A stretch of 64,000 bases of DNA, from NCBI GenBank assembly GCA_017631795.1, contig JAGBSO010000022.1, positions 1-64,000 of the forward strand, in the 5' to 3' direction. Of this stretch, positions 1,662-10,887 are shown piece after piece. The stretch comes from Clostridia bacterium. Its GTDB lineage: Bacteria > Bacillota > Clostridia > Oscillospirales > Acutalibacteraceae. Below the pieces are notes generated by a model. The model saw nothing but the letters and a program-made list of their open reading frames with translations. It was not told the origin of the DNA and did not search any database. Numbering within the stretch: position 1 is the first letter of the stretch; every line of letters starts with the position of its first letter. A program made the position numbers and the translations under genes.

Positions 1662-2051
1662 TTTTCAATCGTCCTTTCTTTTTGTTTTATGATGTTTAAG
1701 CATTCACCCGATTGTTTTTCAGACATACTGTTTTTTACGGAAAAAAATTGCGAAAATCTGCAACTTTTTTCTAAAAAAGGGTATACTGATCCCTTTGGTG
1801 ATATATAACAACATATTAATTATACCCCTATTTGGTAAAATGTCAAGGAACATATAAATATTTATAAGTATTTAACATATTATAAAGAAAAAAATTTTGC
1901 ATATATAACAAAATATATTTCAGTATATTTTATTATCAATATTTTGACTGATAAGTTTAATTTTCACTATTGAAATATCCTTTATTGTCAGTATATAATA
2001 TAGAAAGACAAACACACACTGCTACATAATATTTTCAGAGGTATGATAACA
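1662..2051. other. AT-rich divergent intergenic region
   Basis: This 390-bp gap separates the divergent phosphoesterase and flavodiiron genes. It holds no gene that I can support. It contains the phosphoesterase ribosome site, a small inverted repeat (AAAGGG at 1776-1781 and CCCTTT at 1791-1796) and the promoter described at 1970-1999. The rest is AT-rich without recognisable RNA structure. Confidence 0.6.
1970..1999 (+). promoter_or_regulatory. Promoter of the flavodiiron gene
   Basis: TTGAAA (1970-1975) and TATAAT (1994-1999) are separated by 18 bp, a good sigma-A type match, about 50 bp before the start codon. Confidence 0.65.
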
Positions 2052-3206
2052 ATGATTATAACAAAAGATATCCGCTACATCGGTGTAAACGACCATAAAA
2101 TTGATCTGTTTGAAGGACAATATGATGTCCCCAACGGAATCGCCTACAATTCCTATGCAATCATAGATGAAAAAATTGCAATTATGGATACTGTGGATGC
2201 CGGATTCACTCAGGAATGGATGGATAACATACAGAAAACTCTCGGAGACAGACTGCCTGATTATCTTATAATTCAGCACATGGAACCCGACCATTCCGCA
2301 AACATCATGAATTTTATAAACAGATATCCCGAAGTGAAGATTGTTTCATCTGCAATTGCATTCAAAATGATGAAGCAGTTTTTCGGCACAGATTTTGAAG
2401 ATAACAGAATTGTTGTAGGCGAAAATGATACACTTTCACTGGGCAGACATGAACTTACATTTGTGACAGCACCGATGGTGCATTGGCCTGAAGTTATCGT
2501 GACATACGACAGCACAGATAAAGTTCTTTTCTCCGCAGACGGATTCGGAAAATTCGGAGCACTTGATGTTGAAGAAGCATGGGCTTGTGAAGCGAGAAGA
2601 TACTACATCGGCATTGTAGGAAAATACGGTGTACAGGTGCAGAATCTGCTTAAAAAAGCTGCAAACCTTGATATTCAGATCATCTGTCCACTGCACGGAC
2701 CTGTACTTACGGAAAATCTCGGATATTACATCAATCTTTACAATATCTGGTCAAGCTACAGACCTGAAGAAGACGGTGTTGTTATCGCGTACACATCCGT
2801 CTACGGCAACACAAAAAAAGCTGTTATGCAGCTTGCAGAAAAACTCAAAGAAAAAGGTTGCCCGAAAGTTACGGTCAATGACCTTGCAAGATGTGACATG
2901 GCTGAAGCTGTGGAAGATGCATTCCGTTACAGCAAAATTGTTCTTGCAACAACCACTTACAACTCAGATATATTCCCCTTTATGAAGGAGTTCATAAATC
3001 ATCTGACAGAACGTAATTTCAGAAACAGAACAGTTGCATTCATGGAAAACGGTTCATGGGCACCTGTTGCAACAAATGTTATGAAAGGTATGCTGGAAAA
3101 GAGCAAAAACCTGACATATACCGCAACATCTGTCAGAATTATGTCTGCTCTGAATGAAGAAAGTTCTGCTCAGATTGATAATCTTGCAGATGAACTTTGC
3201 AAATAA
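2052..3206 (+). CDS. fprA: A-type flavodiiron protein (O2/NO reductase)
   Basis: This cytoplasmic enzyme reduces O2 to water, and in some members NO to N2O, protecting anaerobes. The N-terminal metallo-beta-lactamase-like domain has the diiron motif HMEPDHS, a later MVHWPE His and the distal CPLHGP His. The C-terminal flavodoxin domain begins near residue 250 with the FMN loop TSVYGNT. At 384 residues it has the usual two-domain length without a rubredoxin extension. I chose the ATG at 2052 because AGAGG (2037-2041) lies 10 nt before it; the in-frame ATG at 2043 is too close to that site. Electrons probably come from a separate rubredoxin or NADH reductase not in this window. Confidence 0.93.
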   Translation: MIITKDIRYIGVNDHKIDLFEGQYDVPNGIAYNSYAIIDEKIAIMDTVDAGFTQEWMDNIQKTLGDRLPDYLIIQHMEPDHSANIMNFINRYPEVKIVSSAIAFKMMKQFFGTDFEDNRIVVGENDTLSLGRHELTFVTAPMVHWPEVIVTYDSTDKVLFSADGFGKFGALDVEEAWACEARRYYIGIVGKYGVQVQNLLKKAANLDIQIICPLHGPVLTENLGYYINLYNIWSSYRPEEDGVVIAYTSVYGNTKKAVMQLAEKLKEKGCPKVTVNDLARCDMAEAVEDAFRYSKIVLATTTYNSDIFPFMKEFINHLTERNFRNRTVAFMENGSWAPVATNVMKGMLEKSKNLTYTATSVRIMSALNEESSAQIDNLADELCK

Positions 3207-4704: not shown

Positions 4705-5862
4705 TTATGCAAATAATTTTTCAATAAAGTTTTTCAGTTCATCTTCTGAAGATGCGGAAAGTTTTCCCTGTGCGTAGTTATCTTTTCCGCCGCCTTTGCC
4801 GCTGAATGCTGAATTGAGTTCGGATACAAGATTTCTCACATCATTCTCTGCACTGCTGACGACATAAATATAATTGTTTTCGTCGCTCTTTGACAGAAGA
4901 ATGCATTTTCTTGTGCCGTTTTCGATAAGATTATTCGAACACTCTCTCAGGTCATCATAAGACATGTTCTCATTTATCGCATAAGCACAGCCGTTTACAG
5001 TTACGGGGCTGAGCGATGCCAATGCAAGTTTTCTTGACATTTTGCCGTTTTCTGATTTGAGATTATTGGCTGTTTCCTGAAGTTTTTCAACAGACATTGC
5101 AATTGAATCACGTTTTGCGGAAAGCAGATTCATAACCTGTTTTACAGATGTATGAAGAGCTGAATAATCAAGAAAAGCATTGATACCTGCGACCATTTCA
5201 ATTCTTGTGCCTTTTTTATGAGGGCAGAAATCTATAATTTTTATAACACCGATTTCACCTGTAAATGCAGGATGCGGTGCGCAACACGCACAACAATCAA
5301 TGCCTTCAATTGTGATAAGTCTGATGCCGTCACGAGGTTCAATTTTACTTCTGTAATCAGTTGCTGCAAGTTCATCTTTTGTGGGATATGATGCTGTAAT
5401 CGGTGCATTTTTATAAATCGCCTTGTTTGATTCAAGCTCGACCTTTGCAATATCATCTGCTGTGAGAGGTCCGCTGAAATCAACAGTCATAGTCTTTTCG
5501 CTCATATGGAAACCCACATTGTCATAACCGAAAAGGCTGTGCACAACACCTGAAACTACATGCTCACCTGCATGACTCTGCATTCTTTCAAACCTGAGCT
5601 CCCAGTCAAGCTCACAACAGACTGCATCACCAGTATTGAATGCTTTTTCTGTTTTATGGTAAACAATGCCGTCTTTTTCCTGCACATCAAGGACATTCAC
5701 ACCGTTTATAGTGCCTTTATCAGGAGCCTGACCGCCGCCTTCAGGAAAAAATGCGGTTTTATCAAGTACAACAAAAAAAGAACCGTCTTTTTCTTCGCAG
5801 AAAACTACATTTGCAGAAAAACTTCTGCAATATGCGTCTTTTTCAAATAGTCTTTCAGTCAT
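4705..5862 (-). CDS. AlaX-type alanyl-tRNA editing protein with DHHA1 domain
   Basis: A 385-residue free-standing homologue of the editing half of alanyl-tRNA synthetase, which hydrolyses mischarged tRNA(Ala) such as Ser-tRNA(Ala). The FFPEGGGQ strand is near residue 38. The zinc site is HAGEH (H97, H101) plus C193 and H197 in CCAPH. The C-terminal third is a DHHA1 domain with the Gly-rich loop GKGGGKDNYAQGKL. There is no aminoacylation domain. The start codon lies only about 12 bases beyond the terminator of the aspS-gatB operon, so expression may rely on read-through or an unseen promoter in gatB. Function is assigned from family motifs. Confidence 0.88.
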   Translation of the reverse strand: MTERLFEKDAYCRSFSANVVFCEEKDGSFFVVLDKTAFFPEGGGQAPDKGTINGVNVLDVQEKDGIVYHKTEKAFNTGDAVCCELDWELRFERMQSHAGEHVVSGVVHSLFGYDNVGFHMSEKTMTVDFSGPLTADDIAKVELESNKAIYKNAPITASYPTKDELAATDYRSKIEPRDGIRLITIEGIDCCACCAPHPAFTGEIGVIKIIDFCPHKKGTRIEMVAGINAFLDYSALHTSVKQVMNLLSAKRDSIAMSVEKLQETANNLKSENGKMSRKLALASLSPVTVNGCAYAINENMSYDDLRECSNNLIENGTRKCILLSKSDENNYIYVVSSAENDVRNLVSELNSAFSGKGGGKDNYAQGKLSASSEDELKNFIEKLFA

Positions 5863-5873
5863 TTTATCATTCC

Positions 5874-5903
5874 TTAAAACAAAACGGGAGTTTTCACTCC
5901 CGT
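5874..5903 (-). terminator. Terminator of the aspS-gatA-gatB operon
   Basis: On the minus strand, AACGGGAG and CTCCCGTT form a stem followed by TTTTGTTTT. It lies after gatB and immediately before the AlaX ribosome site. Confidence 0.75.
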
Positions 5904-5910
5904 TATTTCA

Positions 5911-7329
5911 TTATTTAAGCTTATTTTCAAGAAGAGCTTTGATGACTGTGGGGTCACCTGCACCCTTGAGTTCTTTCATACAAGCACCGAAGAGTGCCTG
6001 AAGTGCCTTGACTTTACCGTTTCTGTAATCTGTGGCAGCCTGTGCATTGTTTGCGATAACAGCATCAACAATGCTTTCAACAGCTGATGAATCAACCTGT
6101 TTGTCAAGACCGTTAGCCTTGCAGAATTCTACGGGGTCGGCACCGTCTTCAATCATAGCGATAAGAACTTTCTTACCTGCATTTCTGTTGATCTTTCCGT
6201 CTGCAACCATCTTGATAACAGCAGCAAGGTTTTCTGCTGTGATATCAAGCTCAGAGATTGTCTTGCCTGCCTTACGGAGAATACCCATACAGTCTGTAAG
6301 GATATAAGCAGCTGTGTCTTTCATGTTACAGCCGAGTGCAACTGTATCATCAAGAAGTCTGAGAATCTTGTTGTTTGCAAGAAGCATATCAATTTCTTTA
6401 TCTGAAATTCCTGCTTCTCTGTATTCTTCTGCCTTTTCGTCAACTGCTGTGGGCTTTGCAGCCTTGATTGCTTCAAGCCATTCGTCATCAATAACGATAG
6501 GCATAAGGTTTGCATCGGGGAAATAACGGTAATCTGCTTCTGTTTCCTTGTTTCTCATTGCAGATGTCTTACCTGTTACATCGTCAAATCTTCTTGTTTC
6601 CTGAACGAGTTCTTCTGTACCGAATTCGATTGCATCGATATGACGCTGTGATTCGTACTTGATAGCTTTTTCGATAGCTTCAAATGAACTCATGTTCTTG
6701 ATTTCTGTACGAACACCGAATTCTTCACTGCCTTCGGGACGTACTGAAATGTTGACGTCGCAACGCATTGCACCTTCTTCACACTCTGAAATTCCGCCTG
6801 AACGGAACATATTCTTGAGTTTACCGAGGTAAGTTACAACTTCTTCAGCACTTCTGAAGTCGGGCTGAGTAACGATTTCGATAAGAGGCACACTTGTACG
6901 GTTGAAGTCAACAAATGATGAATTACCGCTGTGAACAAGTTTACCTGCATCTTCTTCCATGTGAATCTGCTTGATTCTGATATCACGGGGACCCTGTGAA
7001 GTTTTGAGTGATACAAGACCGTTTGTACAGATGGGATGATTGATCTGAGTGATCTGATATGCACAGGGAAGATCGGGATAATAATAGTTTTTCTTATCAA
7101 ATGTTGTATAACGGCTGATTTCGCAGTTAAGCATAAGACCTGCTGTTACAGCGAGTTCAACAACTCTTTTATTCATTACGGGAAGCATACCGGGCATACC
7201 TGAACAAGCAGGGCATACGCAGTCGTTGGGTTCATTTGCAGCAGAGTGACCGCCGCATGAGCAGAATATCTTTGAAGCTGTTTCAAGCTCAACATGAGTT
7301 TCAAGACCGATAACTACTTCATAATTCAT
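5911..7329 (-). CDS. gatB: Asp/Glu-tRNA amidotransferase subunit B
   Basis: GatB phosphorylates the side chain of Asp on tRNA(Asn) (or Glu on tRNA(Gln)) and transfers ammonia to it. The 472-residue length is normal. Visible motifs are GLETHVEL, the zinc cysteines CSCGG and CVCPAC, KKNYYYPDLP, HMEEDAGKL, and the C-terminal YqeY-type tRNA-binding tail. In the motif usually read as (D/N)-(L/N)-P-K-x-Y-Q, this protein has Cys (codon at 7063-7065). By alignment that position is Lys88 of the Staphylococcus aureus protein, which I recall as lining the ammonia channel; Lys79 and Glu125 equivalents are kept. The gene starts 2 nt after gatA ends. Confidence 0.95.
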   Translation of the reverse strand: MNYEVVIGLETHVELETASKIFCSCGGHSAANEPNDCVCPACSGMPGMLPVMNKRVVELAVTAGLMLNCEISRYTTFDKKNYYYPDLPCAYQITQINHPICTNGLVSLKTSQGPRDIRIKQIHMEEDAGKLVHSGNSSFVDFNRTSVPLIEIVTQPDFRSAEEVVTYLGKLKNMFRSGGISECEEGAMRCDVNISVRPEGSEEFGVRTEIKNMSSFEAIEKAIKYESQRHIDAIEFGTEELVQETRRFDDVTGKTSAMRNKETEADYRYFPDANLMPIVIDDEWLEAIKAAKPTAVDEKAEEYREAGISDKEIDMLLANNKILRLLDDTVALGCNMKDTAAYILTDCMGILRKAGKTISELDITAENLAAVIKMVADGKINRNAGKKVLIAMIEDGADPVEFCKANGLDKQVDSSAVESIVDAVIANNAQAATDYRNGKVKALQALFGACMKELKGAGDPTVIKALLENKLK

Positions 7330-7331
7330 AA

Positions 7332-8513
7332 TTATTCACCCTTCCCTTCTGCACTTGCACCGAGGCTGAGAAGTGTGCTTTCGCTGAAGTTCTTACCTAT
7401 GAACTGAACACCTGATGTTACAAGCGCAGGTGCACCGATAAGGTTGGGAACACAAGTGAATACACTTTCTTCAAATACCTTGATAAATGCGTCATTTATA
7501 TCATAATCTTCGTAAGATGTCTTACTGCATACAGGTGTGAGAACTGCAGCATATGATGCGAAAAGTTCTGCCATTTTTTCTGAAACAACACGGCGGACTC
7601 TGAGAGATTTATCAAAGCAATCCTTATATCTGTTCTTTGAAAGAACATCTGAACCGTAAAGAATAACTGTCTTTGTAAGGAAGTTGAAACCTTCTGTTCT
7701 TGTATTGACATAAAGCTCGTCAATATTTCTGTACTTTTCAGCTCTGTGGCCGAATTTTACACCGTCATAACGTGAAACATTGTTACAAGTTTCTGCACAC
7801 ATGAGAATCTGCCATGCTGTGTTTGCAAGGTCAAATACGTCAAGAGAAACTGTTTCAACAACAACACCGTCTGCCTTGAGTGCTTCTGCAACTGCAAGAA
7901 CTTTTGCCTTTGCAGCATCATCTGCCTTATCAAGAAGCTCCTTGACGATGCAGACTTTCTTACCGTTTACGGCACTGATTGAATAGTCATATTTTTCTTC
8001 GGGAAGGCTTGTGCCGTCCTTTGAGTCATGACCTGCGATAACGTCCATAATCTCTCTGATGCCGTCTGCATTCTTTGCGTAAACTCCAAGCTGTTCACCT
8101 GATGCTGCGCATGAAATCACACCGTAACGTGAAACTGTTCCGTATGTGGGTTTGAGGAAATCAACACCTGAAAGTGCTGCTGCACGTCTTGTTGCACCGT
8201 TCATATCAACACCGAGTGCAGCTTTCACATCACCTTTTGCAACAAGTTCTGCTGCTGCACCTTTAAGATTGCCGTCCTGAGGTGCATAGTATGAAAATTC
8301 ACCGACAAGGTCAAGACCGAACTCACCTGTTGCAGTTTTGCCTGAAACAGTGTAACCTTTATCCAGGAGTCTTGTAACTGCTTCAGCACTGAAAAGAGGC
8401 TTGAATCCTTCAAGAATTTTTGAACCTGCAGTAGCCACGGCATCTTTTACAAGAATTGTATCGTCAACGGCGATATTGCCGTTATCACATATCTTAGTAA
8501 TATATTCTGTCAT
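7332..8513 (-). CDS. gatA: GatA-family protein lacking both catalytic serines
   Basis: GatA normally hydrolyses glutamine with a Ser-cisSer-Lys triad and sends the ammonia to GatB. This copy has 393 residues instead of about 485; roughly 60 N-terminal residues are missing. The framework is clear: ILVKD keeps the catalytic Lys (K23), SKILEGF, LKPTYGTVSRYG, VIAGHD, VSRYDGVKFGHR, and a late VQFIG. The Gly/Ser-rich loop carrying the cis-Ser is replaced by QDGNLKG (79-85, bases 8259-8279). The nucleophile motif TGGS is replaced by MNGA, giving Ala107 (8193-8195). The frame is intact and the flanking blocks are conserved, so this is not a recent frameshift. It probably cannot hydrolyse glutamine and may be a structural subunit. 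It lies between the aspS::gatC fusion and gatB. Confidence 0.9.
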   Translation of the reverse strand: MTEYITKICDNGNIAVDDTILVKDAVATAGSKILEGFKPLFSAEAVTRLLDKGYTVSGKTATGEFGLDLVGEFSYYAPQDGNLKGAAAELVAKGDVKAALGVDMNGATRRAAALSGVDFLKPTYGTVSRYGVISCAASGEQLGVYAKNADGIREIMDVIAGHDSKDGTSLPEEKYDYSISAVNGKKVCIVKELLDKADDAAKAKVLAVAEALKADGVVVETVSLDVFDLANTAWQILMCAETCNNVSRYDGVKFGHRAEKYRNIDELYVNTRTEGFNFLTKTVILYGSDVLSKNRYKDCFDKSLRVRRVVSEKMAELFASYAAVLTPVCSKTSYEDYDINDAFIKVFEESVFTCVPNLIGAPALVTSGVQFIGKNFSESTLLSLGASAEGKGE

Positions 8514-8524
8514 TTAAGCACACC

Positions 8525-10600
8525 TCACTTTACAAGTCTGGGTACCTGCCAGCTGTCTTCATTTCTTTCGGGAGCACCTTCAAGAAGGCTTTCTCTTGAG
8601 AAAGGCTGCTTGCGTGCATCTTCACGAAGAACATTTGTCATGGGCATTACGTGTACCATTTCTTCTGTATCTGTTGTGTCACAATCTGCAAGGATTTTTT
8701 CACTTTCTTTCATTTTAGCAAAAATGTCCTGCATAACTGCTTCTTCATCATCTGTGAGTGAAAGCTGATTGAGCTGCTGAGCGTTTGAGAATGTTGAACG
8801 CTTGCCTGAAGCTTTACTGCCGCCTGAAGTTGCTGCCTGACGCTGTGCAAGAGCACTGCCTGAGCCGAGAAGGTGAACATCTTCAAGCTGCTGATTTGTA
8901 ACTTCTGAGGGAGCACCGAGAAGAAGATCCTGAGCATTATCGTTAAGGGGGAATGCAATAACATCAAGAATCTTTTCTTCATCAGTAAGAAGCATAACCA
9001 TACGGTCAATACCGGGTGCCATACCTGCATGAGGAGGTGCACCGTACTGGAATGCTGTGTAAAGAGCATTGAATCTCTTTTTAAGCTCTGATTCGTCATA
9101 ACCTGCAATATCGAAAGCCTTTTTCATGATTTCAATATCATGGTTACGTACAGCACCTGATGCAAGTTCAATACCGTTACATACAAGGTCGTACTGATAT
9201 GCAAGAACTTCCGTGGGATCTTTTGTCATAAGAGCTTCCATACCGCCCTGAGGCATTGAGAAGGGGTTATGAGTAAAGATTGTTTCGCCTGTTTCTTCGT
9301 CATTTTCGTACATGGGGAAATCAACAACGAAACAGAATTCGAATGCGTCGTCATTTATAAGGTCGAGCTGTTCTTTCTTTGCAAGCCATGTTCTGATAAG
9401 ACCTGCTTTTTTCTCTGTATCATTCTTCTTGTCATCACAGATGAAGAAGAGTGTTTCGCCTTCTTTTACGCCTGTGATTGAAGTGATTTCAGCTTTCTGT
9501 TCTTCACTCAGGAACTTTGCGATAGGACCTGCGAATTCACCCTCTTTGAGAGTGATATAACCAAGACCGCCGAGACCGACTTCTGCTGAAGTTGCATATT
9601 TGAGTGAATCTTCAAAGAATTTCTTTGACTTGCCCTGACAGGGAGCAACAATACCTCTTACGGGTCTGCCTCTGAATGCGGGGAAATTTACACCTGCAAA
9701 GAAATCTGTAAGGTCAACGATGATAAGGGGGTTACGAAGGTCAGGCTTATCTGAGCCGTATGTCATCATTGACTCTGCATATGTGATACGGCGGAAAGGC
9801 TTTGGAGTAACCTTTTTGTCTGAGAATGTCCTGAATGTATCATAGATAACGTCTTCACATACATCAAGAACTTCTTCCTGTGTTGCGAAAGCCATTTCAA
9901 AGTCAAGCTGATAGAATTCACCGGGTGAACGGTCTGCTCTTGCGTCTTCATCACGGAAACAGGGTGCAACCTGGAAGTATCTGTCAAAACCTGATACCAT
10001 AAGAAGCTGTTTGAACTGCTGAGGTGCCTGAGGCAGAGCATAGAACTTGCCGGGGTGCTTACGGCTGGGAACAAGGAAGTCACGTGCACCTTCGGGTGAT
10101 GATGCAGTAAGGATAGGTGTCTGCATATCAAGGAAGCCCTTGTCTTCCATCTTGTTTCTCAGATGGCGGATAATTCTTGAACGCATAACAAGATTGTTGT
10201 GATTCTTGGGATTACGAAGGTCAAGATAACGGTACTTAAGACGGAGTTCGTCTTTGCTCTGTCTTGAATTTCTTACTTCAAAAGGAAGCATATTCTGAGA
10301 CTTACCGAGAATCTGAAGTGAATCGGCAACAAGTTCAACATAACCTGTTGCGATTTTTGTGTTTACGGTTTCTTCGTCTCTTTTTTCAACTTTACCTGTA
10401 ACAGAAATAACTGTTTCACGGTTTACATTTTTAACCAATTCCTCATTGTGGATAACTACCTGTGTGACACCTGTGTAGTCACGAAGGTCAACGAATATAA
10501 CGCCACCGTGGTCACGGACAACATCAACCCAACCTGCAAGACTTACAGTCTGACCGATGTGTTTGTCACAGATGTCGTTACAATACAAGGTTCTGTACAT
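8525..10600 (-). CDS. aspS: Aspartyl-tRNA synthetase fused to GatC (aspS::gatC)
   Basis: A 691-residue protein. Residues 1-577 are a bacterial AspRS: OB-fold anticodon domain, class II motif 2 (FRDEDARADRSPGEFYQLD), GAD insertion and motif 3 region (GMAPGIDRMVML). The segment VRDHGGVIFVDLRD has His where discriminating enzymes usually have Leu, which suggests charging of both tRNA(Asp) and tRNA(Asn). Residues 578 to about 604 are a Ser/Gly/Ala/Gln linker. Residues about 605-691 match GatC: SLTDDEEAV, HVMPMTNVLREDA, LLEGAPE and a WQVPRLVK end. I start at the ATG at 10600, which has GGGAGGA (10608-10614) 7 nt upstream; a longer frame to 10684 runs through the T-box terminator. gatA follows 11 nt downstream. 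Confidence 0.95.
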   Translation of the reverse strand: MYRTLYCNDICDKHIGQTVSLAGWVDVVRDHGGVIFVDLRDYTGVTQVVIHNEELVKNVNRETVISVTGKVEKRDEETVNTKIATGYVELVADSLQILGKSQNMLPFEVRNSRQSKDELRLKYRYLDLRNPKNHNNLVMRSRIIRHLRNKMEDKGFLDMQTPILTASSPEGARDFLVPSRKHPGKFYALPQAPQQFKQLLMVSGFDRYFQVAPCFRDEDARADRSPGEFYQLDFEMAFATQEEVLDVCEDVIYDTFRTFSDKKVTPKPFRRITYAESMMTYGSDKPDLRNPLIIVDLTDFFAGVNFPAFRGRPVRGIVAPCQGKSKKFFEDSLKYATSAEVGLGGLGYITLKEGEFAGPIAKFLSEEQKAEITSITGVKEGETLFFICDDKKNDTEKKAGLIRTWLAKKEQLDLINDDAFEFCFVVDFPMYENDEETGETIFTHNPFSMPQGGMEALMTKDPTEVLAYQYDLVCNGIELASGAVRNHDIEIMKKAFDIAGYDESELKKRFNALYTAFQYGAPPHAGMAPGIDRMVMLLTDEEKILDVIAFPLNDNAQDLLLGAPSEVTNQQLEDVHLLGSGSALAQRQAATSGGSKASGKRSTFSNAQQLNQLSLTDDEEAVMQDIFAKMKESEKILADCDTTDTEEMVHVMPMTNVLREDARKQPFSRESLLEGAPERNEDSWQVPRLVK
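8528..8787 (-). other. gatC: GatC domain region of the AspRS fusion
   Basis: This segment encodes the C-terminal ~87 residues of the fusion. The conserved GatC core (HV-P-NVLRED and AP-x-VP-V motifs) is preserved. No separate gatC gene is seen near gatA and gatB, so this domain is the likely GatC of the complex. Confidence 0.88.
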
Positions 10601-10614
10601 ACAGCATTCCTCCC

Positions 10615-10859
10615 GTTTTGATTCAAAAATAAAAATAAGTCCCAAGGAATATTTTGAAAAATATTCCCGGGACGAGTAAAACAAAAATTAAACCCGCGGT
10701 GCCACCCGCATTGACGCACATATTGTGCATCCTCTTTTATATTAACTTGGGACATAACGCGAAGTGTTGCCGTTCTTACTACTCATCTCAGATGCGCTTT
10801 CAGTCGCTGACGCATCCTCCCTGACAGACTTTCCACAAAAGACGGGTCTTCACATAGAT
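10615..10859 (-). ncRNA. T-box leader of the aspS::gatC-gatA-gatB operon
   Basis: The minus strand has the T-box core GCGGGTGGCACCGCGGGTT (10691-10709), which pairs with the CCA end of an uncharged tRNA. It is followed by a terminator stem (GTCCC and GGGAC arms enclosing GGAATATT/AATATTCC, 10639-10673) and a U-rich tail. Upstream, GATGCG and CGCATC (about 10793-10817) form a stem that I take as the upper part of Stem I. Uncharged tRNA(Asn) or tRNA(Asp) would favour read-through. I could not assign the specifier with certainty; an AAC triplet in AAGAACGGCAAC is one candidate and would mean Asn. Confidence 0.9.
10639..10673 (-). terminator. T-box regulated terminator stem
   Basis: Inverted arms GTCCC..GGAATATTTT and AAAATATTCC..GGGAC are followed on the minus strand by TTATTTTTATTTTT, just before the aspS ribosome site. 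Confidence 0.85.
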
Positions 10860-10887
10860 ATTATATCAAAAAATTTATTTTTGTCAA
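10860..10887 (-). promoter_or_regulatory. Promoter of the T-box leader
   Basis: On the minus strand TTGACA (10882-10887) and TATAAT (10860-10865) are separated by 16 bp. Both hexamers match the sigma-A consensus exactly. Confidence 0.85.

Follow-up and report, generated by a model that had tools for sequence, protein, structure and literature searches.

Descriptions of the amidotransferase GatCAB present it as dependent on glutamine. The closest described relatives of the operon analyzed here, which lies in a 64,000-nucleotide stretch of a clostridial genome (the window), are bacterial GatCAB and the Asn-transamidosome (S. aureus, A. aeolicus, P. aeruginosa, and T. thermophilus), with which it shares the fold, the subunits, the operon, the GatB site, and, judged by a motif, an AspRS of putative non-discriminating type. 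T-box(Asn) control, as reportedly found in C. acetobutylicum (Saad 2012, as cited), is a further common feature. In contrast to bacterial GatCAB, the GatA-fold subunit encoded in the window, here GatA*, has no catalytic triad, no glutamine-binding residues, and none of the N-terminal ~60 residues of canonical GatA; in addition, GatC is fused to AspRS, and GatB is changed at positions 89 and 274.

Two systems outside this group bear on how such a complex might work. In yeast GatFAB, the native glutaminase is intact, and when mutations impair it, amidation can still proceed with NH4Cl (PMC4027206). The ammonia-dependent asparagine synthetase AsnA resembles the proposed activity in that asparagine is made with ammonia and not glutamine, but it acts on free Asp rather than on Asp-tRNA and lies outside the GatCAB families. 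An inactive GatA was undescribed in the literature that our search covered, most structural work on GatCAB being outside its reach.

Operon layout and the T-box leader

The operon is encoded on the minus strand, as are all features of the window given below, and begins with a T-box leader (10665..10878). The leader resembles Rfam family RF00230, with a divergent stem I, an antiterminator, and a terminator; the cmscan match is full-length but falls short of the gathering score of 93 (49.5 bits, E 6.5e-9). A T-box element was found 5' of aspS in nine of 10 related loci searched, with scores likewise under the gathering score. The T-box/antiterminator sequence, GGGUGGCACCGCG, and a putative AAC specifier are present and conserved in relatives. 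By sequence reading, the probable specifier codon AAC (Asn) is at 10766..10768, within a motif, GGNAAC[A/G]C, that is conserved in the leaders of related operons.

Downstream of the leader are the aspS::gatC fusion (8525..10600; 691 residues from the ATG at 10600), gatA* (7332..8513), and gatB (5911..7329), followed by a probable intrinsic terminator read from the sequence as CGGGAG-TGAAAA-CTCCCG-TTTTGTTTT (5876..5904). The T-box-driven Asn-tRNA operon proposed in the preliminary description is real, both in its leader (cmscan) and in its gene order (Pfam). Beyond the gatB terminator lies an AlaX/DHHA1-like alanyl-tRNA editing gene (window 4705-5862), a homologue of which occurs within the flanks of ~30 of 69 GatA* loci, often 3' of an asparaginase-like gene.

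The fusion protein contains the Pfam domains tRNA-synt_2, anticodon OB-fold, GAD, and GatC. Its GatC part scores 36.1 with Pfam GatC, above the cut-off of 23, and 44.2 with TIGR00135, slightly below the cut-off of 47.1. The anticodon-loop motif reads RDHGGVIF in the operon AspRS, while the genome's second AspRS has RDLGALIF and in this resembles the discriminating enzyme of E. coli. The operon AspRS is predicted, by its motif, to be of the non-discriminating type. A mycobacterial non-discriminating AspRS reportedly has glutaminase activity (Chew 2020, by title, as cited in PMC8406222), and such an activity in the AspRS part, or in another cellular amidotransferase, might in principle serve the complex; nothing in the sequence of AspRS::GatC points to an extra glutaminase domain (Pfam, NCBIfam), and we give this explanation very little credence. 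Two loci of the window's genus (L180 and L181) have a separate aspS::gatC-gatA-gatB operon with canonical GatA, so the fusion is found in both the GatA* and the canonical lineages.

By profiles and alignments, the active-site residues of the transamidase subunit GatB are intact, and the catalytic residues (Glu10, His12, and the Glu125 region) are invariant in 67/67 operons. Position 89 is Cys in the window GatB, whereas it is Lys in 54/55 canonical GatB sequences, and position 274 is Asn in place of the canonical Asp; both changes are clade-specific (K89 to C/A/G/S and D274 to N). Lys89 is reportedly a tunnel residue in the H. pylori enzyme.

The glutaminase site of GatA*

The GatA frame, earlier described as intact, is confirmed to be so, and profiles, alignments, and a structural model show that the 393-residue product of gatA* has the GatA fold and belongs to the GatA family. 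An amidase fold is present (Pfam amidase match of 176 bits), and the score with the GatA equivalog model TIGR00132 is 249.1 bits, below the curated cut-off of 481.1. The AlphaFold model (pLDDT 82.6, with a weak stretch at residues 244-291) superimposes on S. aureus GatA (2df4_A) with a TM score of 0.87.

Residue columns were set by alignment with the S. aureus, T. maritima, and A. aeolicus GatA proteins and by family alignments. As previously noted, QDGNLKGAA stands in place of the cis-Ser loop, PGGSSGGSA, and Ala107 (codon 107, 8193..8195) occupies the column of the nucleophile Ser178. The catalytic lysine was thought to remain, which the alignments contradict: the segment IAVDDTIL corresponds to (I)A(I/V)KDNIL, and the Lys79 column is therefore occupied by Asp17 (codon 17, 8463..8465), the lysine formerly taken as catalytic being K23 of LVKD, six residues past that column. 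Further losses, absent from the preliminary description, are seen in the Glu354, Arg358, and Asp425 columns, which hold Leu, Val, and Ser, respectively. Work on GatFAB assigns binding of the glutamine substrate to the counterparts of Arg358 and Asp425, the Glu acting as a support for the Arg (PMC4027206); the correspondence drawn here between GatFAB and GatA* residues is our own.

Alignment with canonical GatA thus finds the triad missing and a lesion larger than was first described. An intact triad elsewhere in the protein was considered and rejected, as the alignments with PDB sequences place the columns where the family alignments do, and the model adopts the GatA fold. Sequencing or assembly error, already judged unlikely, was rejected as well, the identical state being found in 38 relatives and in many further genomes. 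On these sequence grounds, it is near certain that GatA* has lost the canonical glutaminase site, and the predicted loss of glutaminase activity by the known mechanism is strongly supported, by more residue losses than had been claimed.

A new catalytic site in GatA* that still frees ammonia from glutamine or another donor might be built from other residues. Candidates include Asp17, Asp68, Asn105, Arg110, and Cys243, which vary little or not at all within GatA* and most of which differ from canonical GatA. Such a site nonetheless appears improbable, given that Lys79, the cis-Ser, Arg358, Asp425, and Glu354 are all lost, that the cis-Ser loop is shortened, and that the nucleophile column varies, holding Ala, Ser, or Thr in different GatA* proteins.

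Spread of GatA* and the supply of Asn-tRNA

Relatives of the window GatA* in public genomes (n = 38; 48-92% identical) all share its losses, and the losses of the triad and of the glutamine-binding residues are common to all full-length GatA* members examined. The Lys79 column is Asp in 98% of 55 aligned GatA* sequences and Glu in the remainder; it is also Glu at two loci, L114 and L148. Nineteen positions, including 79, 125, 129, 130, 176, 181, and 354, are fixed differently in GatA* and canonical GatA. The triad is kept in the 30 canonical GatA proteins of the family and in nearly all other canonical ones. An exception, from L157 (like L179, from genome G683), is a full-length GatA with K79E and S154A that retains Ser178, Arg358, and Asp425; this is an independent partial loss in a genome that has a second match. 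Descent of GatA* from the L157 protein was rejected because L157 sits inside the canonical clade.

In the tree, GatA* and its divergent subclasses form one clade apart from canonical GatA (98/87), and a profile search likewise splits GatA* (at least 389 bits) from canonical GatA (at most 292 bits). With the window's own genome included, GatA* was found in 17/394 genomes of the order, 13/391 of the class, and 2/399 of the phylum. The clade is spread over many clostridial families, and its carriers include some gut and digester Clostridia. Among close orthologues, dN/dS is ~0.10-0.14 for GatA* and 0.04-0.07 for GatB; GatA* is under purifying selection, and these values rule against recent decay of the gene.

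Other divergent GatA proteins were encountered in the survey. A second class of 440-445 residues (L088, L089, L090, and L096) has Thr or Gly in the Lys79 column and has lost the cis-Ser loop but keeps Ser178; the genomes concerned also have canonical GatA and no AsnRS. At L106 (genome G112, 5227-8681), a divergent GatA-like protein with Cys in the Lys79 column adjoins a 670-residue GatB-like protein with a C-terminal extension.

The window's genome (97.6% complete) encodes no Amidase-family protein other than GatA*, and hence no second canonical gatA, and synthetase searches found no AsnRS in it: the class II D/K/N synthetases are the second AspRS, AspRS::GatC, and LysRS only. AsnB is present, but free Asn cannot be charged because AsnRS is lacking. 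GluRS adjoins GlnRS in this genome, and GlnRS scored over the cut-off in 43/50 genomes with GatA* or its class-2 relative; a need for the complex in Gln-tRNA amidation is unlikely, as GlnRS is present. With AsnRS absent and GlnRS present, the complex should be the sole source of Asn-tRNA(Asn).

This pattern extends to other carriers. AsnRS scored over the cut-off in one of 29 GatA* genomes (order and class samples, own genome included) as compared with 127/200 genomes of the family sample (Fisher p 4e-10), the genomes being mostly metagenome-assembled, so that AsnRS could be missed. Counter-examples are eight GatA* genomes of the family sample with AsnRS over the cut-off. Some carriers possess AsnRS or canonical GatA in addition, so the complex cannot be essential in all of them, and one could suppose on the same grounds that it is a remnant or a regulator and that Asn-tRNA is produced some other way. 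We regard that supposition as highly improbable in view of the purifying selection on gatA*, the T-box(Asn) control of the operon, and the absence of AsnRS from the window's genome and from 27/28 other GatA* genomes. The earlier suggestion of a complex retained for a scaffold role is likewise unlikely to be the whole explanation, as the genome appears to have no other means of producing Asn-tRNA.

Source of ammonia

Because every catalytic residue is lost, the ammonia should come as free ammonium or be supplied by a partner. In the reading that we prefer, and consider probable, the complex is an Asn-tRNA amidotransferase that depends on ammonia from outside GatA*, with GatA* serving as its scaffold and as the point of ammonia entry. 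The operon would then encode an asparagine-dedicated transamidosome without a glutaminase. The non-discriminating AspRS part of AspRS::GatC would charge tRNA(Asn) with Asp, and GatB would activate the Asp side chain with ATP for amidation by ammonia. GatA* would be retained as a scaffold for GatC and GatB and as both wall and mouth of the ammonia tunnel, its former glutamine pocket having presumably been rebuilt, with an acidic residue in place of the catalytic Lys. The ammonia would be drawn from the cytosolic ammonium pool and not produced by GatA*, and part of it probably comes from an asparaginase-like protein whose gene, in many relatives, belongs to the operon or adjoins it. The absence of any other Amidase-family protein and of AsnRS, the invariant GatB site, and the asparaginase-like neighbors all support an outside source. 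That the complex is active and takes up external ammonia we infer, whereas the losses in GatA* and their conservation, the purifying selection, the intact GatB site, the T-box, and the gene content are computed results. An enzyme supplied with ammonia from free ammonium or by a second protein, as first suggested, fits best, with free ammonium as the simplest candidate source.

The asparaginase-like gene (PF00710) lies beside the operon in 27 rows of the GatA* position table, two of which re-fetch one locus: directly 3' of gatB on the same strand in 16, 5' of the T-box on the same strand in seven, and on the opposite strand in four. The count leaves out L190, where a type II asparaginase gene (1803-2927, minus strand) is found 49 bp past gatB of a canonical GatCAB operon. 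Among NCBIfam models, those for type I asparaginase and archaeal GatD come closest to the asparaginase-like protein, which reaches the cut-off of none of them, and its structural model is closest to asparaginases. Matches of at least 300 bits occur in 24/46 GatA* genomes versus 0/34 comparison genomes, and matches of at least 140 bits occur in 42/54 genomes without AsnRS versus 2/26 with it, the p-values of these comparisons being only indicative because the controls were hand-picked and the genomes are related.

These observations raise the possibility, which we hold to be real but rather doubtful, that the asparaginase-like protein is a dedicated partner of the complex, which it would bind and whose GatB it would supply with ammonia taken from asparagine or glutamine, as a bacterial counterpart of archaeal GatDE. 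The adjacency, the restriction of close matches to GatA* genomes, the asparaginase/GatD-like sequence and fold, and the retention of the Thr nucleophile and of the Thr-Asp of HGTDT are in its favor, but the position of the catalytic Lys is occupied by Gln or another residue, and, where GatA is canonical, the wider family also tracks a lack of AsnRS. Because of the latter, the protein may only convert otherwise unusable free Asn to Asp and ammonia. The window's operon, moreover, has no adjacent asparaginase-like gene; the homologue in its genome is more distant (180 bits) and is located 52 bp after leuS (L221:4464-5438), and it carries the motifs SENL, HGTDT, and YHSGT but lacks Lys at position K162. 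The case for a donor role is therefore weak in this genome, given both the missing Lys and the location of the gene outside the operon. If a partner does feed ammonia, the likeness to archaeal GatDE would consist of an asparaginase-fold protein combined with aminoacyl-tRNA amidation of the GatB/E type; unlike GatDE, the present system has no GatE, keeps a GatA-fold subunit, and has its candidate partner outside the operon and without the catalytic Lys.

We conclude that GatA* represents a GatA lineage lacking the glutaminase site, in a transamidosome that is specific for asparagine and very likely supplied with ammonia from outside GatA. Less likely, though conceivable, is that the GatCAB glutaminase was abandoned and replaced in trans by an ammonia-feeding asparaginase-like protein, a bacterial re-invention of GatDE; if this were true, free asparagine, useless without AsnRS, would be converted to Asp and ammonia, from which asparagine would be re-formed on the tRNA. 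With the glutaminase site lost throughout a widespread clade, and with the complex predicted to be the only supplier of Asn-tRNA(Asn), nature would offer an amidotransferase that depends on ammonia. Such an enzyme makes the non-glutaminase roles of GatA and the uptake of ammonia by the tunnel directly testable questions, and it would tie the decoding of asparagine to ambient ammonium in gut bacteria.
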